Positions 10,799 through 19,987 of a stretch of DNA of 35,332 bases are shown piece after piece. Every line of letters begins with the position of its first letter. Within the stretch, counting starts at the first letter, position 1. The stretch is taken from contig JAKUNN010000006.1 in the NCBI GenBank assembly GCA_022451885.1, forward strand, positions 1 through 35,332, written 5' to 3'. This DNA comes from Dehalococcoidia bacterium (GTDB lineage: Bacteria > Chloroflexota > Dehalococcoidia > Tepidiformales > Tepidiformaceae). Under the pieces are notes generated by a model. That model did not search any database. It had not been told where the DNA came from and worked only from the letters and a program-made list of their open reading frames with translations. The translations under genes and the position numbers were made by a program.

Positions 10799-11173
10799 GT
10801 GCTTCACGAATATGGTCATATTGCTGTACTAGTAATTATCGCTCTGGTCTTTCCGGCAGGGGCGCTTGTTCAGTCTTGGGTTTTTCAATTCGTTCGTGTA
10901 CGTCCACGGGTAAGTTCTGACCCTGTCAAAGAAGATACATACGAGTGCGGAATGGTTACTCGTGGTTCTTCTCTCCCACAGTTCAATTTTGGCTTTTATG
11001 TTTTTGCTTTGTTGTTTTTGTTAATTGACGTAGAAATCGTTTTTCTTTTTCCTTGGACTCTTGTTTTTGAAGAAGCTGGTGCAGCGGGTCTTCTCAAAGT
11101 GGTCATTTTTCTTGCCACTTTTGTAGTTGGTGGCCTTTATGCTTGGCGAAAACGTTTATTGGAGTGGCGCTAA
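10799..11173 (+). CDS. nuoA: NADH-quinone oxidoreductase subunit A
   Basis: Membrane subunit of complex I, 124 residues with three predicted helices (about 9-29, 62-82 and 95-115). The conserved loop between helices 1 and 2 is present as DPVKEDTYECGM, including the Cys that in the active/deactive studies becomes exposed, and FYVFALLFLLIDVEIVFLFPW is the family signature. The start is GTG with an AGGT site 6 nt upstream. The gene ends in TAATG shared with nuoC, so nuoB, which nearly always follows nuoA, is missing here. First gene of the operon. Confidence 0.95.
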   Translation: MLHEYGHIAVLVIIALVFPAGALVQSWVFQFVRVRPRVSSDPVKEDTYECGMVTRGSSLPQFNFGFYVFALLFLLIDVEIVFLFPWTLVFEEAGAAGLLKVVIFLATFVVGGLYAWRKRLLEWR

Positions 11174-11700
11174 TGTCTACTCGTTGGTGGTCTTCTACAG
11201 AATTTGCCGAGTTTTTATCTAAACTTGTACCTGATTCAATTTCTCGTGTTGAAGAAAATGCATGTTATCTGGTCCCTGAAAAGTTGGTGGAAGCAATGAT
11301 GGCCTTAAGGGATGATGCTGATAGTAATTTTGTGCATCTTACCAATCTTTGTGCAGCAGATTATTGGGATAAGTTTGAAGTTATTTATCATATACAGTCC
11401 CTCGAAAAGAATTGTATAGCGTCAGTGAAGGTCGAAGTTTTAGATAGGGAAAATCCCGTTTTGCCGAGCGTAACTTCTGTTTGGCATGGTGCTTGGTTGC
11501 AAGAATGTGAAGCCTATGATTTATACGGTATCCGTTTTGAAAATCATCCTAATCTGACTAGAATTTTATTGTGGGAAGGGTACCCCGGTTGGCCTCTGAG
11601 AAAGGATTTCTTAACGATGCCAGGAGGTCTTCAGCCAGGGTTAAATGAATTTGCAGGAACCGCAGCTAAACCTGAACCACCGGTGCATACAGTCGAATGA
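11173..11700 (+). CDS. nuoC: NADH-quinone oxidoreductase subunit C
   Basis: Peripheral-arm 30-kDa subunit of complex I, which carries no cofactor. The track start (11143) overlaps nuoA by 31 nt; I prefer the ATG at 11173, which forms a TAATG stop-start overlap and has GGAG at 8-nt spacing, giving 175 residues (MSTRWWSSTEF). Family blocks are LTNLCAADYWDKFEVIYHIQSL, LPSVTSVWHGAWLQECEAYDLYGIRFENHPNLTRILLWEGYPGWPLRKDF. The usual WxERExxDxFG box is changed to WLQECEAYDLYG. It overlaps nuoD by 4 nt (ATGA), so translation is likely coupled. Confidence 0.95.
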   Translation: MSTRWWSSTEFAEFLSKLVPDSISRVEENACYLVPEKLVEAMMALRDDADSNFVHLTNLCAADYWDKFEVIYHIQSLEKNCIASVKVEVLDRENPVLPSVTSVWHGAWLQECEAYDLYGIRFENHPNLTRILLWEGYPGWPLRKDFLTMPGGLQPGLNEFAGTAAKPEPPVHTVE

Positions 11701-12806
11701 GTGAAATAGTTAAAACCGAACCGTTTGTCATGAATATTGGGCCGCAACACCCTTCTACACATGGTGTTTTTCGTGTGAAGGTAACCGTCGATGGTGAGCA
11801 AATTACGGATGCTGAAATGGTTATCGGATATTTACATAGGTCGATGGAAAAATTGGCAGAAGAACGGACGTACACACAGAATATTCCGTTTACAGACCGC
11901 ACGGATTATTTGTCTTCCATGTCCAATAATTTGGGGTATTGTCTAGCGGTTGAAAAGTTAGGAGGCCTGTCCGTTCCAGCTCGAGGGCAGGCGATAAGAG
12001 TGATAATGGCGGAATTGCAACGCCTTGCTAGTCACTGCATGGGGGCTGGTGCTTTTGCGAACGATACTGGTGCTTGGCAAACGCCTGTGATGTGGTTTAA
12101 CCGCGAACGTGAGCGTATTTTAGATATTTTTGAAATGACTAGTGGAGCTCGATTGACCTGTAATTACATGCGTATAGGTGGAGTAGCGTTTGAATTACGT
12201 TCAGGATTTGAAGAAGCTGTACGTAATTTATTGCCTCGTTTACAACAAACCATTGCTGATGGGCAGGAGCTTTTAGCTGAAAATGAGATCTTTATTGCGC
12301 GTGCTCGAGATGTTGCTGTTGTTTCGCCAGAAACAGCGATTGGAGCAAGTCTAACCGGCCCAATGCTCCGTGGTAGCGGTGTTGCTTGGGATATCCGAAA
12401 AGCAGATCCCTATTCTGGTTATGAGAAGTATGATTTCCAGATTCCCATTGGCTATAAAGGCGATGCTTACGATCGTTTTACTGTCAGGCTTGAAGAGATG
12501 AGGCAAAGTATCAAAATTGTTGAACAAGCGCTTGATGACTTGCCGGGAGGTCCTCATAGCACTGAAGTTCCGCTTGCTTTTCGTCCTCCGGCAGGCGAGG
12601 CATATGCGAGAATTGAAAGTCCCCGTGGGGAATTAGGATATTACCTTATCAGTGATGGTGGACCTTCGCCGTTTAGGTTCCATATACGTCCTCCATCCTT
12701 GATAAACCTTTCGGTACTCAAAGAAATGACCGTGGGGGCCAGTGTGGCGGATGCGATTATTGCGCTGGGGTCTGTCGATATTGTTGTAGGGGAGATTGAT
12801 CGTTAA
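11697..12806 (+). CDS. nuoD: NADH-quinone oxidoreductase subunit D
   Basis: The 49-kDa subunit, 369 residues, forming the quinone site together with NuoB and NuoH. The N-terminal IGPQHPSTHGVFRVKVTVDGE holds the quinone-contact His, and FTDRTDYLSSMSNNLGY holds the conserved Tyr. GASLTGPMLRGSGVAWDIRKADPYSGYEKYDFQIP, LEEMRQSIKIVEQAL and the terminal LGSVDIVVGEIDR are all intact. Because the quinone-site residues are kept, the protein should still pair with a NuoB carrying cluster N2, yet no nuoB is present in this operon. Start and stop overlap the neighbours (ATGA with nuoC, TAATG with nuoH). Confidence 0.97.
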   Translation: MSEIVKTEPFVMNIGPQHPSTHGVFRVKVTVDGEQITDAEMVIGYLHRSMEKLAEERTYTQNIPFTDRTDYLSSMSNNLGYCLAVEKLGGLSVPARGQAIRVIMAELQRLASHCMGAGAFANDTGAWQTPVMWFNRERERILDIFEMTSGARLTCNYMRIGGVAFELRSGFEEAVRNLLPRLQQTIADGQELLAENEIFIARARDVAVVSPETAIGASLTGPMLRGSGVAWDIRKADPYSGYEKYDFQIPIGYKGDAYDRFTVRLEEMRQSIKIVEQALDDLPGGPHSTEVPLAFRPPAGEAYARIESPRGELGYYLISDGGPSPFRFHIRPPSLINLSVLKEMTVGASVADAIIALGSVDIVVGEIDR

Positions 12807-14074
12807 TGCTTTCCTTTCTAGCTACTGATCACTGGTACGATTTAAGAGATTTGGCAAATCTTTACCGTGTTGTTCTTGAAGGATTAGATCATATTTTTCC
12901 AACTGGTTTGGTTTACGTACTTACAGCACTTTTAGGGTTCATTGCTTTTTTTGTTGTATTCGTTTTACCTTCTCAACTCTACGTTGGAGTTTATGGTGAA
13001 CGTCGCCTCATTGGACGGATGCAAGCTCGTCAAGGACCTAATCGGGTTGGGCCATTAGGTCTTCTTCAACCAGTTGCAGATGCAATTAAACTCTTGCAAA
13101 AAGAAGCATTAACTCCTCGCTCTGCTGATCGCCTAATCATGTGGGCTGCTCCTGTTTTGTTCGTGGCTCCCGCCATTTTAATATTTGCGGTTATCCCATT
13201 TGGGCCACGTATGGTTTTTGCAGATATCCCAGTTTCGCTCATGTATTTTTTGGCAATTTCATCCCTGCCTGTTATCGCTTCTTTCATGGCTGGCTGGAGC
13301 TCGAATAATAAATACAGTCTTTTTGGAGCTATGCGTATTGTAGCGATGTCAATTTCGTATGAAATTCCACTTGTATTAGGATTGCTTGCTGTGTCGGTTC
13401 TCTCTGGCACGATGAGTTTACAAGGAATGGTTTACTGGCAGCAGGATATACCTACATGGATGATCTTGATTCAACCGATTGCTTTCGCCGTTTATTTTAT
13501 TGGAGTGAGTGCTGAATTAAATCGCACCCCCACTGATATTGCTGAAGCTGAATCAGAAATTGTTGCCGGATATTTAACCGAATATTCCGGAATGCGATGG
13601 GGTTTGTTCTATGGTATGGATATTGCCTATGCTTTGGGAGCATCTGCTTTCGCAGCTACTATTTTCTTCGGTGGCTGGTCATTATTTGGACTTGAGCAAT
13701 GGGTGCCGCCTTGGTTAATTTTTATTCTTAAAACGTACCTATTCTACTTTGTGTTTATATGGACGAGAGGTACCTTGCCGCGTCTGCGGATAGATCAATT
13801 AATGTCATTTGCTTGGAAGTTTCTGTTGCCTATTGCGTTGATTAATCTCCTTGTAGTAGCAGTAGAGCGTTTAATTTGGACTTCAAACGATTTGCCTGAT
13901 GCAATTGTTTGGGCATTCGGTGCGGTGAATATTGTCCTGATGGTGGGAATTGTTTTCATTTGGGCAAAGGTTTTTAAATATGATCCGAAAAAAAGACCTA
14001 CGAAGCCACGTCTTGTAAATGAACCGGGTGGATATCGTCCAGTAGATCTTGAACAAGGAGGCCCATCTTTATGA
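12806..14074 (+). CDS. nuoH: NADH-quinone oxidoreductase subunit H
   Basis: Membrane subunit of 422 residues with about eight to nine helices, linking the quinone cavity to the proton channels. GERRLIGRMQARQGPNRVGPLGLLQPVADAIKLLQKE and MAGWSSNNKYSLFGAMR are diagnostic. The quinone-cavity loop reads AELNRTPTDIAEAESEIVAGYLTEYSGM; the family norm is RxPFDxxEAExELVAG, so Phe is replaced by Thr (about T243). The C-terminus has a hydrophilic tail of about 30 residues (DPKKRPTKPRLVNEPGGYRPV...). The next gene would normally be nuoI; instead nuoJ overlaps by 4 nt, with AAGGAGG upstream of its ATG. Confidence 0.95.
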   Translation: MLSFLATDHWYDLRDLANLYRVVLEGLDHIFPTGLVYVLTALLGFIAFFVVFVLPSQLYVGVYGERRLIGRMQARQGPNRVGPLGLLQPVADAIKLLQKEALTPRSADRLIMWAAPVLFVAPAILIFAVIPFGPRMVFADIPVSLMYFLAISSLPVIASFMAGWSSNNKYSLFGAMRIVAMSISYEIPLVLGLLAVSVLSGTMSLQGMVYWQQDIPTWMILIQPIAFAVYFIGVSAELNRTPTDIAEAESEIVAGYLTEYSGMRWGLFYGMDIAYALGASAFAATIFFGGWSLFGLEQWVPPWLIFILKTYLFYFVFIWTRGTLPRLRIDQLMSFAWKFLLPIALINLLVVAVERLIWTSNDLPDAIVWAFGAVNIVLMVGIVFIWAKVFKYDPKKRPTKPRLVNEPGGYRPVDLEQGGPSL

Positions 14075-14586
14075 GTGGTTTCGGGATCACCGTTGCATTT
14101 TGGATTCTTGCCGCATTAACCTTAGCTTCTGCGGGAGGAGTTATGGCTTCCCGTAACTTAATTCACGCAGTTCTTTTCCTGATAGTTGCATTTTTGGGTG
14201 TTTCTGGATTTTTCATTTTGCTTTCTGCAGATTTTTTGGCTATGGCACAGATTATTATTTACGTAGGTGCGATTTCAGTTTTAATTTTGTTTGCGATCGT
14301 ACTTACACCACGCGCAGAGCGTGACAATAGTGAAACAAGTATGGTTTTGCCGGCTCTCTTATTGGGAACTACTCTTGCTGCCGTATTGTTATTCGTTCTC
14401 TACGATGCTAATTGGAACGTGACTAATGTTGAACCAGGTTTATCTGCTGAGGTATTGGGTTCTGCTTTGCTATCTGTGTGGGTGTTACCTTTTGAACTTG
14501 CATCGGTTTTGCTGACAGCTGCTCTAGTAGGGGCACTCATGATTGTTCGAAGACAAGAAGATGAGGAAGGAGACAGCGCGTCGTGA
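14071..14586 (+). CDS. nuoJ: NADH-quinone oxidoreductase subunit J
   Basis: Membrane subunit of 171 residues with five predicted helices. Helix 3 contains MAQIIIYVGAISVLILFAIVLTPR, the typical NuoJ block with the pi-bulge helix involved in coupling. An AAGGAGG ribosome site precedes the ATG, which overlaps the nuoH stop (ATGA). The C-terminus ends with RRQEDEEGDSAS and overlaps the GTG of nuoK. In most bacteria nuoI lies just before it; it is absent here. Confidence 0.93.
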   Translation: MSGFGITVAFWILAALTLASAGGVMASRNLIHAVLFLIVAFLGVSGFFILLSADFLAMAQIIIYVGAISVLILFAIVLTPRAERDNSETSMVLPALLLGTTLAAVLLFVLYDANWNVTNVEPGLSAEVLGSALLSVWVLPFELASVLLTAALVGALMIVRRQEDEEGDSAS

Positions 14587-14897
14587 CTTTAACACTTGAA
14601 CATTTCTTAACAGTTTCGATTCTTCTGTTTGCTATGGGTCTCGTAATTGCACTTTCGAAACGTAATTCAATTGGTATTTTGATGGGTGTTGAGCTAATGC
14701 TTAATGCTGTGAACCTTGTGCTTATTACCTTTGCTCGGTTTGGTGAAAGCACAATGAGTATTACTGGGCATGCGTTTGTCGCTTTTATAATCACAGTAGC
14801 TGCTGCAGAAGCTGCTGTCGCGTTGGCGCTGGTTATTTCTGTTTATCGTACTCGCGGTACTATTGAAGTCGATCGACTTAAATTGCTTAGGTTCTAA
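14583..14897 (+). CDS. nuoK: NADH-quinone oxidoreductase subunit K
   Basis: Small three-helix membrane subunit of 104 residues, homologous to MrpC. The two buried glutamates needed for proton pumping are seen at about E37 (MGVELMLNAVNLVLI) and E76 (AAAEAAVALALVISVYR), matching E36 and E72 of E. coli. The start is GTG inside the nuoJ stop (GTGA), with AAGGAG upstream. The stop is followed by only 2 nt before the next ORF. Confidence 0.95.
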   Translation: MTLTLEHFLTVSILLFAMGLVIALSKRNSIGILMGVELMLNAVNLVLITFARFGESTMSITGHAFVAFIITVAAAEAAVALALVISVYRTRGTIEVDRLKLLRF

Positions 14898-14899
14898 AT

Positions 14900-15097
14900 A
14901 TGTGGGTTGAATTTATGACTGTTCCGAATGCATATATAGCCGAGACCTGGTGTGAGATTTTTGCTGCCGAGGGATTACGGCTTACTCCAATTCCTCCCAT
15001 AGGACACGGTGAAGATGCTTCGATGTGGGACGAGCGTGTTTTACATGTTCCTAGTGGTAAAGCACATGTTGCTCGAGAAATTTTGAGGAAGATTTAG
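14900..15097 (+). CDS. Small DUF2007-like protein embedded in the nuo operon
   Basis: A 65-residue ORF placed precisely between nuoK and nuoL, 2 nt after one stop and 2 nt before the next ATG, so it is almost surely translated. The sequence MTVPNAYIAETWCEIFAAEGLRLTPIPP...VPSGKAHVAREILRKI looks like the DUF2007 'putative signal transducing' fold: a short beta-alpha-beta unit in which a protein substitutes an ALA/A-E-x-x-x-x-L-x-x-E-G helix, then a strand, then an ACT-like ending. No membrane segment or cofactor motif is visible. The start could also be the ATG at 14915. Its site suggests a role in assembly or control of complex I, but nothing in the sequence proves this. Confidence 0.7.
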   Translation: MWVEFMTVPNAYIAETWCEIFAAEGLRLTPIPPIGHGEDASMWDERVLHVPSGKAHVAREILRKI

Positions 15098-15099
15098 TA

Positions 15100-17055
15100 A
15101 TGCCAGTATATTTTTTAGTTACTGAAGCTGGTGTTCCATCAATAAGTGAAGGAATTCTATGGGCTATTTTAGGAATTCCAGTATTTGCCTTTCTAATCAT
15201 TTTTGGTTTACGACAACGTATTCCTGAGTTGACGTCAGGATATATAAGCATAGGTGCTATTGCTGCCACACTTGTGCTATCTATCGTTGTGCTTTTCAAC
15301 GTTATTGGTGCGGATGGTGGTATTGCTATTCATACGCACAATTGGTTATCAATCGGTGACTTCGATTTTAATTTAGGGGTTCGAGTTGATGGGTTGACTG
15401 CAATCATGTTGATTGTTGTTACCAGTGTGGCCACGCTAGTGCAGATTTACTCGCAAGGCTACATGCATGGAGATCCAGGATATAGGCGTTATTACGCGTA
15501 TATGAGTTTGTTTGCGACGTCAATGCTGGGCCTTGTCCTTGCTGACAACCTTCTTATGCTGTTTGTTTTTTGGGAATTGGTAGGCTTGTCCTCGTATCTT
15601 CTCATTGGGTTTTGGTTCCATAAGCCATCAGCCGCTGCTGCTGCGAAGAAGGCCTTCATAGTTACAAGAATTGGAGACCTTGGACTTTTAGCAGCATTGC
15701 TGTTGATTGGTACTCGTGCGTCGACTTTTCAAATAGATGCAATTCATGAACTTGTCCTCGCAGGTACGCTTGCCGGAACGACCTTAACACTTTTTGGTTT
15801 GGGTATTTTTGCCGGAGCAGTTGGGAAAAGCGCCCAATTTCCATTACATGTTTGGCTTCCTGATGCAATGGAAGGACCGACGCCAGTTTCTGCACTTATT
15901 CATGCAGCCACAATGGTGGCCGCAGGTGTGTATCTTGTGGCACGGTTTTTTCCAATATTCGAAGCGTCACCAGATGCGCGTGAAGTTGTTGCTTGGGTCG
16001 GTGCTATAACTGTTGCAATAGGTGCGTTGATAGCGTTAGTTCAGACTGATCTAAAACGTGTTTTGGCTTATTCCACAATCAGTCAACTTGGGTACATGAT
16101 GTTGGCCTTAGGTGTTTTTGGATATGGTGCTGCTGTTTTTCATTTATTTACACATGCATTCTTTAAAGCATTACTTTTCCTTGGTTCAGGATCCGTTAAT
16201 CATGCGACGAACACGTTTGATATGGGAAAAATGGGCGGATTACGTCACACAATGCCAATTACATTTATTACTTTCCTGATTGGTTCTCTTAGCCTTGCGG
16301 GGATTTTTCCGTTGGCAGGTTTCTTTTCCAAAGATGAAATTTTGGCAGAAGCTTGGATCGAAAATCGTACTTTGTATGGGATTGCTGCGATTGCTGCATT
16401 TTTGACTGCTTTATATATGTTCCGGGCTATTTTCCTCACTTTTTTTGGTGAATATAAAGGAGGGGAAGTGGTTCCAGAGGAAGATAAAAACATTCATTTT
16501 GATGGGATCCCATCAGTCCCTCATGAATCGTCTCGGGTGATGACAATACCGTTGTTAATACTTACGATTGGGGCGATTGGAGCTGGCTGGCTGGCTTTCG
16601 GACGTACCTTCCATGAATTTGTTGAAGCTGCTTTACCCGAACCACCGCACCACGTAGTTCCTTTTAGTTATGGTATTGCAATTTCCTCGAGTGTAATTGC
16701 TTTGTCAGGCATAGCAACAGCTTGGGTAATTTATCAAAAGAAGCTGATTCCAGCTTCAGAAATTTATAAAACTGCTTTCCCTTTTGCCCGTCTTTTTGAG
16801 CACAAATTTGGGTTTGACTGGCTATATGAAAAGATTTTTGTTACAAGGGTATTTCAGCAGTCTTGGAATCGACTAATTGAGCAGTTCGACACTAGGGTGG
16901 TAGATGCTGTTGTTAACGCATCTGGCACTATAGTTCTTGTGTTTGCCCAGGGTGTCCGTGTTGTTCAAAATGGTCAAGTTCAATTGTATGGAGTCGTATT
17001 GGGCGTTGGATTAATTGCCATCGTTATTATTGTCTTCATCGCAAACCCATTGTAG
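15100..17055 (+). CDS. nuoL: NADH-quinone oxidoreductase subunit L
   Basis: Antiporter-like proton-pumping subunit, 651 residues, with about 16 helices and the long lateral helix near the C-terminus (about 530-600). Key residues are present: Glu159 in FVFWELVGLSSYLLIGFW and Lys243 in AVGKSAQFPLHVWLPDAMEGPTPVSALIHAATMV, equivalent to E144 and K229 of E. coli NuoL. The YSTISQLGYM and FSKDEIL blocks are also normal. It begins 2 nt after the small DUF2007-like gene and ends 8 nt before the GTG of nuoM. Length and motifs indicate a complete, working subunit. Confidence 0.97.
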   Translation: MPVYFLVTEAGVPSISEGILWAILGIPVFAFLIIFGLRQRIPELTSGYISIGAIAATLVLSIVVLFNVIGADGGIAIHTHNWLSIGDFDFNLGVRVDGLTAIMLIVVTSVATLVQIYSQGYMHGDPGYRRYYAYMSLFATSMLGLVLADNLLMLFVFWELVGLSSYLLIGFWFHKPSAAAAAKKAFIVTRIGDLGLLAALLLIGTRASTFQIDAIHELVLAGTLAGTTLTLFGLGIFAGAVGKSAQFPLHVWLPDAMEGPTPVSALIHAATMVAAGVYLVARFFPIFEASPDAREVVAWVGAITVAIGALIALVQTDLKRVLAYSTISQLGYMMLALGVFGYGAAVFHLFTHAFFKALLFLGSGSVNHATNTFDMGKMGGLRHTMPITFITFLIGSLSLAGIFPLAGFFSKDEILAEAWIENRTLYGIAAIAAFLTALYMFRAIFLTFFGEYKGGEVVPEEDKNIHFDGIPSVPHESSRVMTIPLLILTIGAIGAGWLAFGRTFHEFVEAALPEPPHHVVPFSYGIAISSSVIALSGIATAWVIYQKKLIPASEIYKTAFPFARLFEHKFGFDWLYEKIFVTRVFQQSWNRLIEQFDTRVVDAVVNASGTIVLVFAQGVRVVQNGQVQLYGVVLGVGLIAIVIIVFIANPL

Positions 17056-17063
17056 GAGGGGTT

Positions 17064-18524
17064 GTGGAATTAACTGCTTTAGTCTTTCTTCCTGCTGCTG
17101 CTGCTGTATTAATACTTCTTTTGCCGCAGCGATATGCAAAAATTTCTAAGTGGATTGCATTAGCTGCCGCAATTGCTGCATTAGTCCTTTCGGTTGTGTT
17201 GTTCTTCTCTTTTGAGCATGGTGCAGGATACCAGTTTGTTGAACGCTATTCGTGGATACAAATAGCAGGATTTGATATTCAATATGCTTTAGGTGTAGAT
17301 GGTTTAAGTTTGCCTTTGGTTGTACTGACTACATTTTTAACAGTCGCAGCTGTATTAGTTTCGTTTCGTATAAATTTGCGAGAACGTGCGTACTTTGCTT
17401 CTTTATTGGTGCTTGCTACCTCTGTTCTTGGCGTGTTTACGGCACTCGATTTCTTAATGTTCTTCCTTTTCTGGGAACTTGAATTATTCCCTATGTTCTT
17501 GTTGATCACTATTTGGGGTTCAGGTAGGCGAGATTATTCAGCAACCAAGTTTGTACTTTACACCTTGGCTGGTTCGGCTTTCATGCTTGTTGGTATTTTG
17601 ACCCTTGCTTCATCGGCGGGAACATTTGACCTTGAAATACTGGCTTCCTCGGTCTTCGGGAGCACTATGATTCCTCTCTCTGTTGTTTTTGCATTTTTGT
17701 TTGTTGGATTTGCTGTGAAGTTACCGATAGTGCCATTACATACATGGTTGCCTGATGCGCATAGTGATGCACCAACTGCTGTATCGGTAATGCTTGCGGG
17801 GGTTCTTTTGAAGATGGGAGGTTACGGCATTATACGTACTTGTATAACGATCCTTCCCGATCAAGCTAAGGATTTTGATATCGTTTTTGCAACTATTGGC
17901 GCGTTAAGTGTCTTGTATGGTGCGTTTGTTACTTTCCGTCAAACCGATGTTAAACGTCTTATAGCCTATTCTTCGGTTAGTCATATGGGATTAGTTCTGC
18001 TGGGCCTTAGTGGTCTCGGTGTTACTGGATTAGCCGGTGCAACGTATCAGATGCTTGCCCATGGATTGATTACGGGGATGCTTTTTGTAGTTATAGGGTT
18101 AATGTACGATAGGACGCATACCAGAGAAATTTCCCAATTAGGTGGACTTGCTCGTCAGATGCCATTGCTTGCAACCGGTCTTGTGTTTGCTGGTTTTGCA
18201 AGTGTTGGATTACCATCACTTGCTGGTTTTATTGCGGAAATTACAATTTTCCTAGGTGCTTTCCAAGCATTTGAGTGGGCGGTTATATTAGCTATTTTTG
18301 GTGCGGTTCTTTCCGCTGGATATATTTTGTGGACGTTACAGCGTGTAGTTTTTGGGCCACCGAAATCTGAGTGGGATTCACTCACAGATCAAAATCAATG
18401 GTGGGAGCATGTTCCCGTATTGGGTTTGGCAGCTCTAATTGTGCTTTTGGGTGTATATCCTGCAATCATCACTGATATGTTAAATCCGACCTTGGAGTTT
18501 GTTGTGGCGAGGCTCAGTATATGA
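17064..18524 (+). CDS. nuoM: NADH-quinone oxidoreductase subunit M
   Basis: Second antiporter-like pump subunit, 486 residues and about 14 helices. Functional residues are Glu138 in FLFWELELFPMFLLI and Lys219 in AVKLPIVPLHTWLPDAHSDAPTAVSVMLAGVLLKMGGYG, matching E144 and K234 in E. coli. The start codon is GTG with a very strong AGGAGGGG just upstream. It overlaps nuoN by 4 nt (ATGA). Confidence 0.97.
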   Translation: MELTALVFLPAAAAVLILLLPQRYAKISKWIALAAAIAALVLSVVLFFSFEHGAGYQFVERYSWIQIAGFDIQYALGVDGLSLPLVVLTTFLTVAAVLVSFRINLRERAYFASLLVLATSVLGVFTALDFLMFFLFWELELFPMFLLITIWGSGRRDYSATKFVLYTLAGSAFMLVGILTLASSAGTFDLEILASSVFGSTMIPLSVVFAFLFVGFAVKLPIVPLHTWLPDAHSDAPTAVSVMLAGVLLKMGGYGIIRTCITILPDQAKDFDIVFATIGALSVLYGAFVTFRQTDVKRLIAYSSVSHMGLVLLGLSGLGVTGLAGATYQMLAHGLITGMLFVVIGLMYDRTHTREISQLGGLARQMPLLATGLVFAGFASVGLPSLAGFIAEITIFLGAFQAFEWAVILAIFGAVLSAGYILWTLQRVVFGPPKSEWDSLTDQNQWWEHVPVLGLAALIVLLGVYPAIITDMLNPTLEFVVARLSI

Positions 18525-19987
18525 ACCCCTTTGAACTAATTAGTCCACAGTTAGCTATCTTAATTGGCGCTGGTTTAATTCTTGTCTATGATGCCATTTT
18601 TCCTAAAGATAATCGTTATCTCCCCTGGATGGCATTGGCTGCGATTGCAGTATCTGTTTCGTTTGCCATTAGTTTGGCTGTGCGCGGAGAGTATCATGTC
18701 GGATTCGAAGGGACATACAGTGTAGATAAGTTTTCTGTTTTCTTTAGTGTGGTTTTTGCTGGGATAGGGGCTGCAGTGGTATTTGCTTCGATGAATTGGG
18801 TCGATCGGGTCGGTCGACGTAAATCCGAGTACTATGCTCTTCTTTTAACTGCCACTGCGGGTTTGATGTTTCTTGCTGGAGCAAGAGACTTAATAACTAT
18901 TTTTATTGCTCTAGAACTTTCCTCGATTCCTCAATATATATTAGCGGGTTGGGGTAAAGATGAGCGGTCAGGTGAATCTGGACTGAAGTATTTGTTACTC
19001 GGTTCAATAGCATCTGCGCTGCTACTTTTTGGTATGGCCTTGTTATATGGTTTGTCTGGTTCAACTTTTGTACCCGAGATTGCGACCTTTATCGGAGAAA
19101 ATGCTTCAGATAATCGTTCACTTCTGATTCTTGCAAGTACACTCATCATAGCTGGATTTGGTTTCAAAATGGCTTTAGTGCCTTTTCAGATGTGGGTTCC
19201 CGATGTTTATGAAGGTGCTCCCACACCAGTAGCAGCGTTTCTATCTGTTGGCTCGAAGGCGGCAGCATTTGCCGTTGTGCTGCGGATTTTCTTTGAAGGC
19301 CTTAATGCAGAAATACTTAGTAATGACTGGGCAATGATTTTTGCAGTTTTAGCTGCAATTTCAATGACTGTTGGAAATATATTTGCACTTGTTCAGTCCA
19401 ATATTAAAAGAATGCTGGGTTATTCTTCTGTTGCCCAAGCTGGTAATTTCGCCATCGGTTTAGCTGCTATAGCAGTTGTAGGTCAGGAGTTTACTTTAGC
19501 TGCAAGTGCTGTGCTGTTCTTTGTCGTGGCATATGCCTTTACAAATTTGGCTGTATTTATTGCAGTAATTGCTATTTCCCGCCATTTGGAGAGTGACGAT
19601 ATAAATGCTTATGAGGGGCTTGCGAAAAGCGCGCCTTTACTCGCTCTAGCCCTTGGAATTGCATTAATTTCACTCACGGGTATTCCTCCATCTGCAGGAT
19701 TTTGGGCGAAGTTATACATCTTTAATGCTGCTGCACAAGCAGATCTTGCCTGGCTAGTAATTGTTGCTGTGTTGAATTCTGTTCTTGCGGCTTTCTATTA
19801 CCTTCGAATTGTCCGTTTGATGTTTAGAAATGTAGAAGACCAGATTGGTTCAGCACCTTTTGCTATTCCAAAATCAATTGGCTTTGTATTAGGTATTACT
19901 GTGCTAGGTGTGCTTGTTTTTGGATTTTTCCCAACTCCAATAATTTCAGTTGCGCGCGAAGCAGCTGCGATTTTCTCGATTGGCTAG
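18521..19987 (+). CDS. nuoN: NADH-quinone oxidoreductase subunit N
   Basis: Third antiporter-like subunit, 488 residues and about 14 helices. Glu132 (IALELSSIPQYILAGW) and Lys216 (FGFKMALVPFQMWVPDVYEGAPTPVAAFLSVGSKAAA) are the expected pump residues. SNIKRMLGYSSVAQAGN is the broken-helix block shared with NuoL and NuoM. It is the last nuo gene. ybeY follows within 12 nt, so transcription probably continues into the dnaX-recO genes; no terminator is visible. Confidence 0.96.
   Translation: MNPFELISPQLAILIGAGLILVYDAIFPKDNRYLPWMALAAIAVSVSFAISLAVRGEYHVGFEGTYSVDKFSVFFSVVFAGIGAAVVFASMNWVDRVGRRKSEYYALLLTATAGLMFLAGARDLITIFIALELSSIPQYILAGWGKDERSGESGLKYLLLGSIASALLLFGMALLYGLSGSTFVPEIATFIGENASDNRSLLILASTLIIAGFGFKMALVPFQMWVPDVYEGAPTPVAAFLSVGSKAAAFAVVLRIFFEGLNAEILSNDWAMIFAVLAAISMTVGNIFALVQSNIKRMLGYSSVAQAGNFAIGLAAIAVVGQEFTLAASAVLFFVVAYAFTNLAVFIAVIAISRHLESDDINAYEGLAKSAPLLALALGIALISLTGIPPSAGFWAKLYIFNAAAQADLAWLVIVAVLNSVLAAFYYLRIVRLMFRNVEDQIGSAPFAIPKSIGFVLGITVLGVLVFGFFPTPIISVAREAAAIFSIG

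Follow-up and report, generated by a model that had tools for sequence, protein, structure and literature searches.

A complex I operon without nuoB and nuoI in a marine Dehalococcoidia bacterium, and the dispersed genes that probably complete it

In complex I, electrons pass from FMN through the clusters of NuoG to N6a/b in NuoI, on to N2 in NuoB and finally to quinone at the interface of NuoB and NuoD, and the membrane subunits pump. We analysed a 35,332-nucleotide stretch of DNA (the window) from a marine member of the Dehalococcoidia, which carries a complex I operon without nuoB, nuoI and nuoEFG, the genes of the five cofactor-binding subunits. This raises the question of whether the operon encodes part of a working respiratory enzyme and, if so, where its redox subunits come from. 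The reading that we favour, with a probability of roughly 0.8, is a functional 14-subunit NADH:quinone oxidoreductase with dispersed genes and an input arm related to formate dehydrogenase (FDH)-type proteins.

The window operon

The operon comprises ten genes, all on the + strand (10799-19987), in the order nuoA-C-D-H-J-K-x-L-M-N, and every open reading frame was found at the coordinates given here. NCBIfam and Pfam profiles identified the nine complex I subunits. nuoA (10799-11173; PF00507, 98 bits, and NCBIfam NuoA) has a GTG start as listed and is followed by nuoC (11173-11700; PF00329, 130 bits; TIGR01961) and nuoD (11697-12806; NuoD models, 450-481 bits), the product of which keeps the HPSTHG motif at residue 18. 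Next come nuoH (12806-14074; NF004741, 338 bits), nuoJ (14071-14586; NCBIfam NuoJ, 117 bits) and nuoK (14583-14897; NCBIfam NuoK, 106 bits), and after gene x the operon ends with nuoL (15100-17055; TIGR01974, 659 bits), nuoM (17064-18524; TIGR01972, 523 bits) and nuoN (18521-19987; TIGR01770, 394 bits). Gene x (14900-15097) encodes a 65-aa DUF2007-type protein, for which PF09413 was matched in 20 of 37 orthologues and the AF2 model has a pLDDT of 95.5. Its orthologues lie between nuoK and nuoL in most of the complex I operons sampled from Dehalococcoidia, both the intact and the dispersed ones, and x is a candidate accessory or assembly subunit of complex I.

An earlier note on this DNA had described a stop-start overlap at each of the two places where a gene is missing, and both are indeed present. 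At the A/C junction, TAATG (11171-11175, + strand), the nuoA stop TAA (11171-11173) overlaps the nuoC ATG (11173-11175); this is the position of nuoB in sister families (loci L131 and L135-L154). At the H/J junction, ATGA (14071-14074, + strand), the nuoH stop overlaps the nuoJ start, where the same sister loci have nuoI. These tight junctions leave no space for either gene. The gene order and absences reported in that note also agree with our profile searches of the window's contig, which gave zero matches to PF01058 (NuoB), TIGR01971 (NuoI), PF01512 (NuoF) or PF10588 (NuoG).

Location and co-descent of the redox genes

The genome (G000; 1.43 Mb, 87 contigs, 86.8% complete) gave two profile matches for NuoB, two clear matches for NuoI, and one each for NuoF and a NuoG-type protein. 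An orphan nuoB stands alone on contig C38 (6777-7439), contig C28 carries nuoI and, after it, a NuoG-type gene for 822 aa (17881 down to 14927), and a nuoE-nuoF pair lies on contig C24 (12480-14857). Together with the window, these contigs encode all 14 complex I subunit types, at four loci. The earlier note had predicted that the redox genes would be found grouped at one other locus; all of them are present, but they occupy three loci, B, I-G and E-F. It had also expected a partner carrying cluster N2, and the orphan NuoB, with its Cys ligands intact, is just such a protein. B, I, F and E have intact sequence motifs for the clusters and the NADH site.

The orphan nuoB is arranged head-to-head with a cofD-like gene of F420 biosynthesis (L013, 5506-7439). 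We dropped a link to F420, since cofD gave no match near nuoB in G011, a relative with a single contig.

A second complex I is encoded on contig C6 in the order A-B-C-D-H-I-J-K-L-M-N; it has 11 subunits, including its own B and I, and is without EFG. Because E-F is the sole NuoF-type copy in the genome, it could also serve this second complex or another enzyme. The NuoI of the C6 complex (L011, 6463-7734) is 423 aa long with a long, charged, low-complexity C-terminal extension, and several relatives have similarly long open frames at this position.

Comparison of operon order in relatives, as the earlier note had proposed, showed that the operon without B and I occurs at more than 30 loci of related genomes and that the window-type arrangement is old and common to about ten Dehalococcoidia families. 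In 21 sampled genomes of other families the genes form one operon, A-B-C-D-H-I-J-K-(x)-L-M-N, with B and I inside, some of these operons being cut by contig ends. The note had reasoned that ordinary scatter in all relatives would make the arrangement routine; the scatter is instead conserved, characterises one clade and is not the rule in the class. Tepidiforma, a cultured candidate for this arrangement, has been isolated and falls in the order that also includes UBA2991, a genus from sponges and seawater (PMC10284905).

In the single-contig relatives G011, G012, G029 and G032 the pieces are 0.15-1.15 Mb apart, except for E-F, which lies ~13 kb from nuoD in G012, G029 and G032. In G007, E-F lies ~700 bp downstream of nuoN on the same strand. 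The sister-family genomes that we examined have E-F-G' as one cluster outside the operon. The grouping of redox genes that failed in the window's own genome is found in part elsewhere, with B-I-G clusters away from the operon in five families (G055; G057/G090/G108; G096; G072; G112), G lying a few kb from B-I in the G057/G090/G108 family. B is separate from I-G in the window's family and several others. As G070 and G096, two members of one family, differ in the position of B, this gene seems to have been separated more than once. The B-I-G cluster is likely an intermediate state between the intact operon and full dispersal, and B and I probably left the operon as one event; the direction of rearrangement would be from the intact order seen in other families. 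G072 appears to have two B-I-G copies, on contigs C10 and C26 (L120, L119).

We built quick trees, with SH-aLRT support only, for NuoD, NuoB, NuoI, NuoG and NuoF. The dispersed proteins formed one group in each: 19 of 20 rows for NuoD (support 98), 20/20 for NuoB (91), 18/18 for NuoI (92), 17/17 for NuoG (100) and 12/12 for NuoF (99). The position of G055 was not settled by the NuoD tree. The second complex I was included in the D, B and I trees only, and there the dispersed groups were distinct from it. This co-descent speaks for the orphan B and I as the window operon's own partners.

The gene blocks follow the electron path: E-F forms the input, I-G (with B in some families) the wire, and the operon the connector and pump. 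The window operon would then provide the connector at the quinone site, made of C and D, and the pump in the membrane, made of A, H, J, K, L, M and N, and three remote loci would provide the electron wire and input, with nuoB supplying cluster N2, nuoI-nuoG supplying N6a/b and the NuoG clusters, and nuoE-nuoF supplying the NADH site, FMN, N3 and N1a. From the sequences we infer that the proteins of the four loci form one complex and that NADH is the electron donor, so that electrons would run from NADH through F/E, G, I and B to quinone at the B/D interface. In the ancestor of the ten or so families, nuoB and nuoI may have left an A-B-C-D-H-I-J-K-x-L-M-N operon and come to lie beside an FDH-type nuoG-like gene without the Mo ligand, with B separating from I-G in a later step.

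The input arm and competing readings

The input-arm proteins G, E and F resemble the FDH/Hyd/Hox type more closely than the canonical complex I type. G scored 219.8 against the NCBIfam NuoG equivalog (cut-off 470) and F scored 423.6 against nuoF_fam (cut-off 558.7), both below threshold. G is closest to the alpha subunit of NAD-linked FDH (E 4e-59, compared to 6e-31 for the best complex I subunit), and F to HydB, HoxF and related proteins (1e-153, compared to 9e-101 for E. coli NuoF). A structure comparison did not settle the matter: the best five matches of G were FDH alphas, followed by E. coli NuoG, with a model that is weak in the Fe-S region. The sequence relationships lend some support to the reading that the earlier note had ranked second, a membrane/connector module that takes another input module.

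The Cys/Sec-His pair that ligates Mo is absent from all 17 I-linked G proteins, and is present in the E-F-G proteins of G052, G061, G069, G073 and G055 (in the last as Sec, TGA). In trees with NuoG and NuoF of other phyla, the canonical proteins fell on one side (100), and in the best trees the dispersed G and F grouped with E-F-G proteins of the class, some of which have the catalytic pair. By the AU test, placing the dispersed and canonical proteins in one group was not rejected for G (p = 0.13) and only just rejected for F (p = 0.040). A single clade of all non-catalytic G proteins was rejected (p = 0.0005), and thus the catalytic pair has changed more than once. It is possible, although we hold it only as a tentative and rather doubtful proposal, that in this clade the NADH arm arose anew: an NAD-linked FDH would have lost its Mo site, taken on the role of NuoG in an 11-subunit complex I and come to lie beside nuoI and nuoB. 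If true, the NuoEFG arm would have originated a second time, and its intermediates would still be alive in sister families.

Two PF10588-type Cys motifs stand in tandem in G, a feature shared with the E-F-G' proteins of the class. In G055 the second complex I operon is immediately preceded by E-F, two Nfn-like genes and an FDH alpha gene with an in-frame TGA that probably encodes Sec (L192, 10390-18683).

The character of the input arm also bears on the strongest competing reading, that the operon and the orphan B and I make a complex I-like enzyme of 11 subunits (A, B, C, D, H-N), which takes its electrons from ferredoxin or some other carrier, and that E-F and G form a separate soluble NAD-linked enzyme. 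In its favour, NAD-linked FDH, HydB and HoxF proteins are the nearest to E, F and G, operons without E, F and G are common in Dehalococcoidia, and sister families have E-F-G outside the operon. However, G is linked to nuoI, and in some families also to nuoB, across the dispersed clade, E-F adjoins nuoN in G007, and the linked G, lacking the Mo-ligand pair, is unlikely to be a formate dehydrogenase. We consider this reading improbable. Several points count against the dispersed 14-subunit enzyme as well: the assembly is fragmented and 86.8% complete, E-F is the sole NuoF-type copy, the NuoD tree does not place G055, and in G of G000, as in that of G011, a Cys of the ferredoxin domain is replaced by Ser (CDFSGAC compared to CDFCGAC; L014, 14927-17395).

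Far less probable is a pump half that works alone, or one docking onto B and I from the C6 complex, while the orphan genes do other jobs. The genome does hold a second B and I for such docking, but the orphan B and I track window-type NuoD through the class, apart from the C6-type proteins in the trees. Mis-assembly or a binning error, by which the contig lost B and I and another organism supplied the orphan copies, gains only from the 87 contigs and 86.8% completeness and is rejected on the clean overlapping junctions, the placement of both orphan proteins inside family f1 by the trees, and the same window-type operon in independent relatives, single-contig genomes among them.

The split and known systems

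The absence of exactly the cofactor-binding subunits carries less weight than it first appears to. The naive chance of this exact split, with five cofactor subunits out and nine in, is 1/2002; however, since the sister families also have E, F and G away from the operon, only the departure of B and I from 11 genes is informative, with a chance of 1/55. The statistical weight of the pattern is small, and the idea that five genes departed because they bind cofactors is correspondingly weaker.

Complex I is thought to have been assembled from dehydrogenase, connector and pump modules, and this clade divides its complex I genes along lines close to those modules. It retains a graded series, from the intact operon through the B-I-G wire cluster to B alone with I-G, and the sister-family relatives of the input arm that have the FDH active-site pair make the transition from a soluble enzyme to a respiratory arm testable. 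The arrangement is also a warning for annotation, as operon-based scoring would label such genomes as having an incomplete complex I.

Split nuo genes are already known, in Chloroflexota among other groups, and in most clades split complex I occurs alongside the single-cluster form (PMC12361115). We found no description of the exact B/I/EFG split in the literature searched, which covered few subscription papers. In the '2M' complex I of cultured Chloroflexi, nuoBCDI are split off together, CD is fused and there is an extra nuoM (PMC7117926). The two cases share a phylum and the placement of some nuo genes apart from the operon, but here only B and I leave, C and D stay and there is one nuoM, so that this is not a 2M enzyme. 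Chloroflexus aurantiacus has two complex I sets, of which the second cluster is loose, with nuoF far off and without a clear nuoG (PMC3150298). The two sets, the remote nuoF and the lack of a clear nuoG in the cluster recall our genome; B and I, however, remain in the C. aurantiacus cluster.

Compared to the canonical 14-subunit complex I (nuoA-N), all 14 subunit types are present and B, I, F and E keep their cluster motifs, but the genes are at four loci, G is nearer to FDH alpha and E-F is nearer to FDH, HoxEF and HydB. The 11-subunit operon of the sister families (L131, L135-L154) shares the gene order, orthologous subunits and, in most cases, the DUF2007 gene between K and L; there, in contrast, B lies between A and C, I lies between H and J, and E-F-G' form one cluster elsewhere. 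Finally, E, F and G resemble the FdsGBA (NAD-linked FDH), HydABC and HoxEFU modules in domain layout and sequence, and differ from them in that the I-linked G is without the Cys/Sec-His pair and is encoded beside nuoI.
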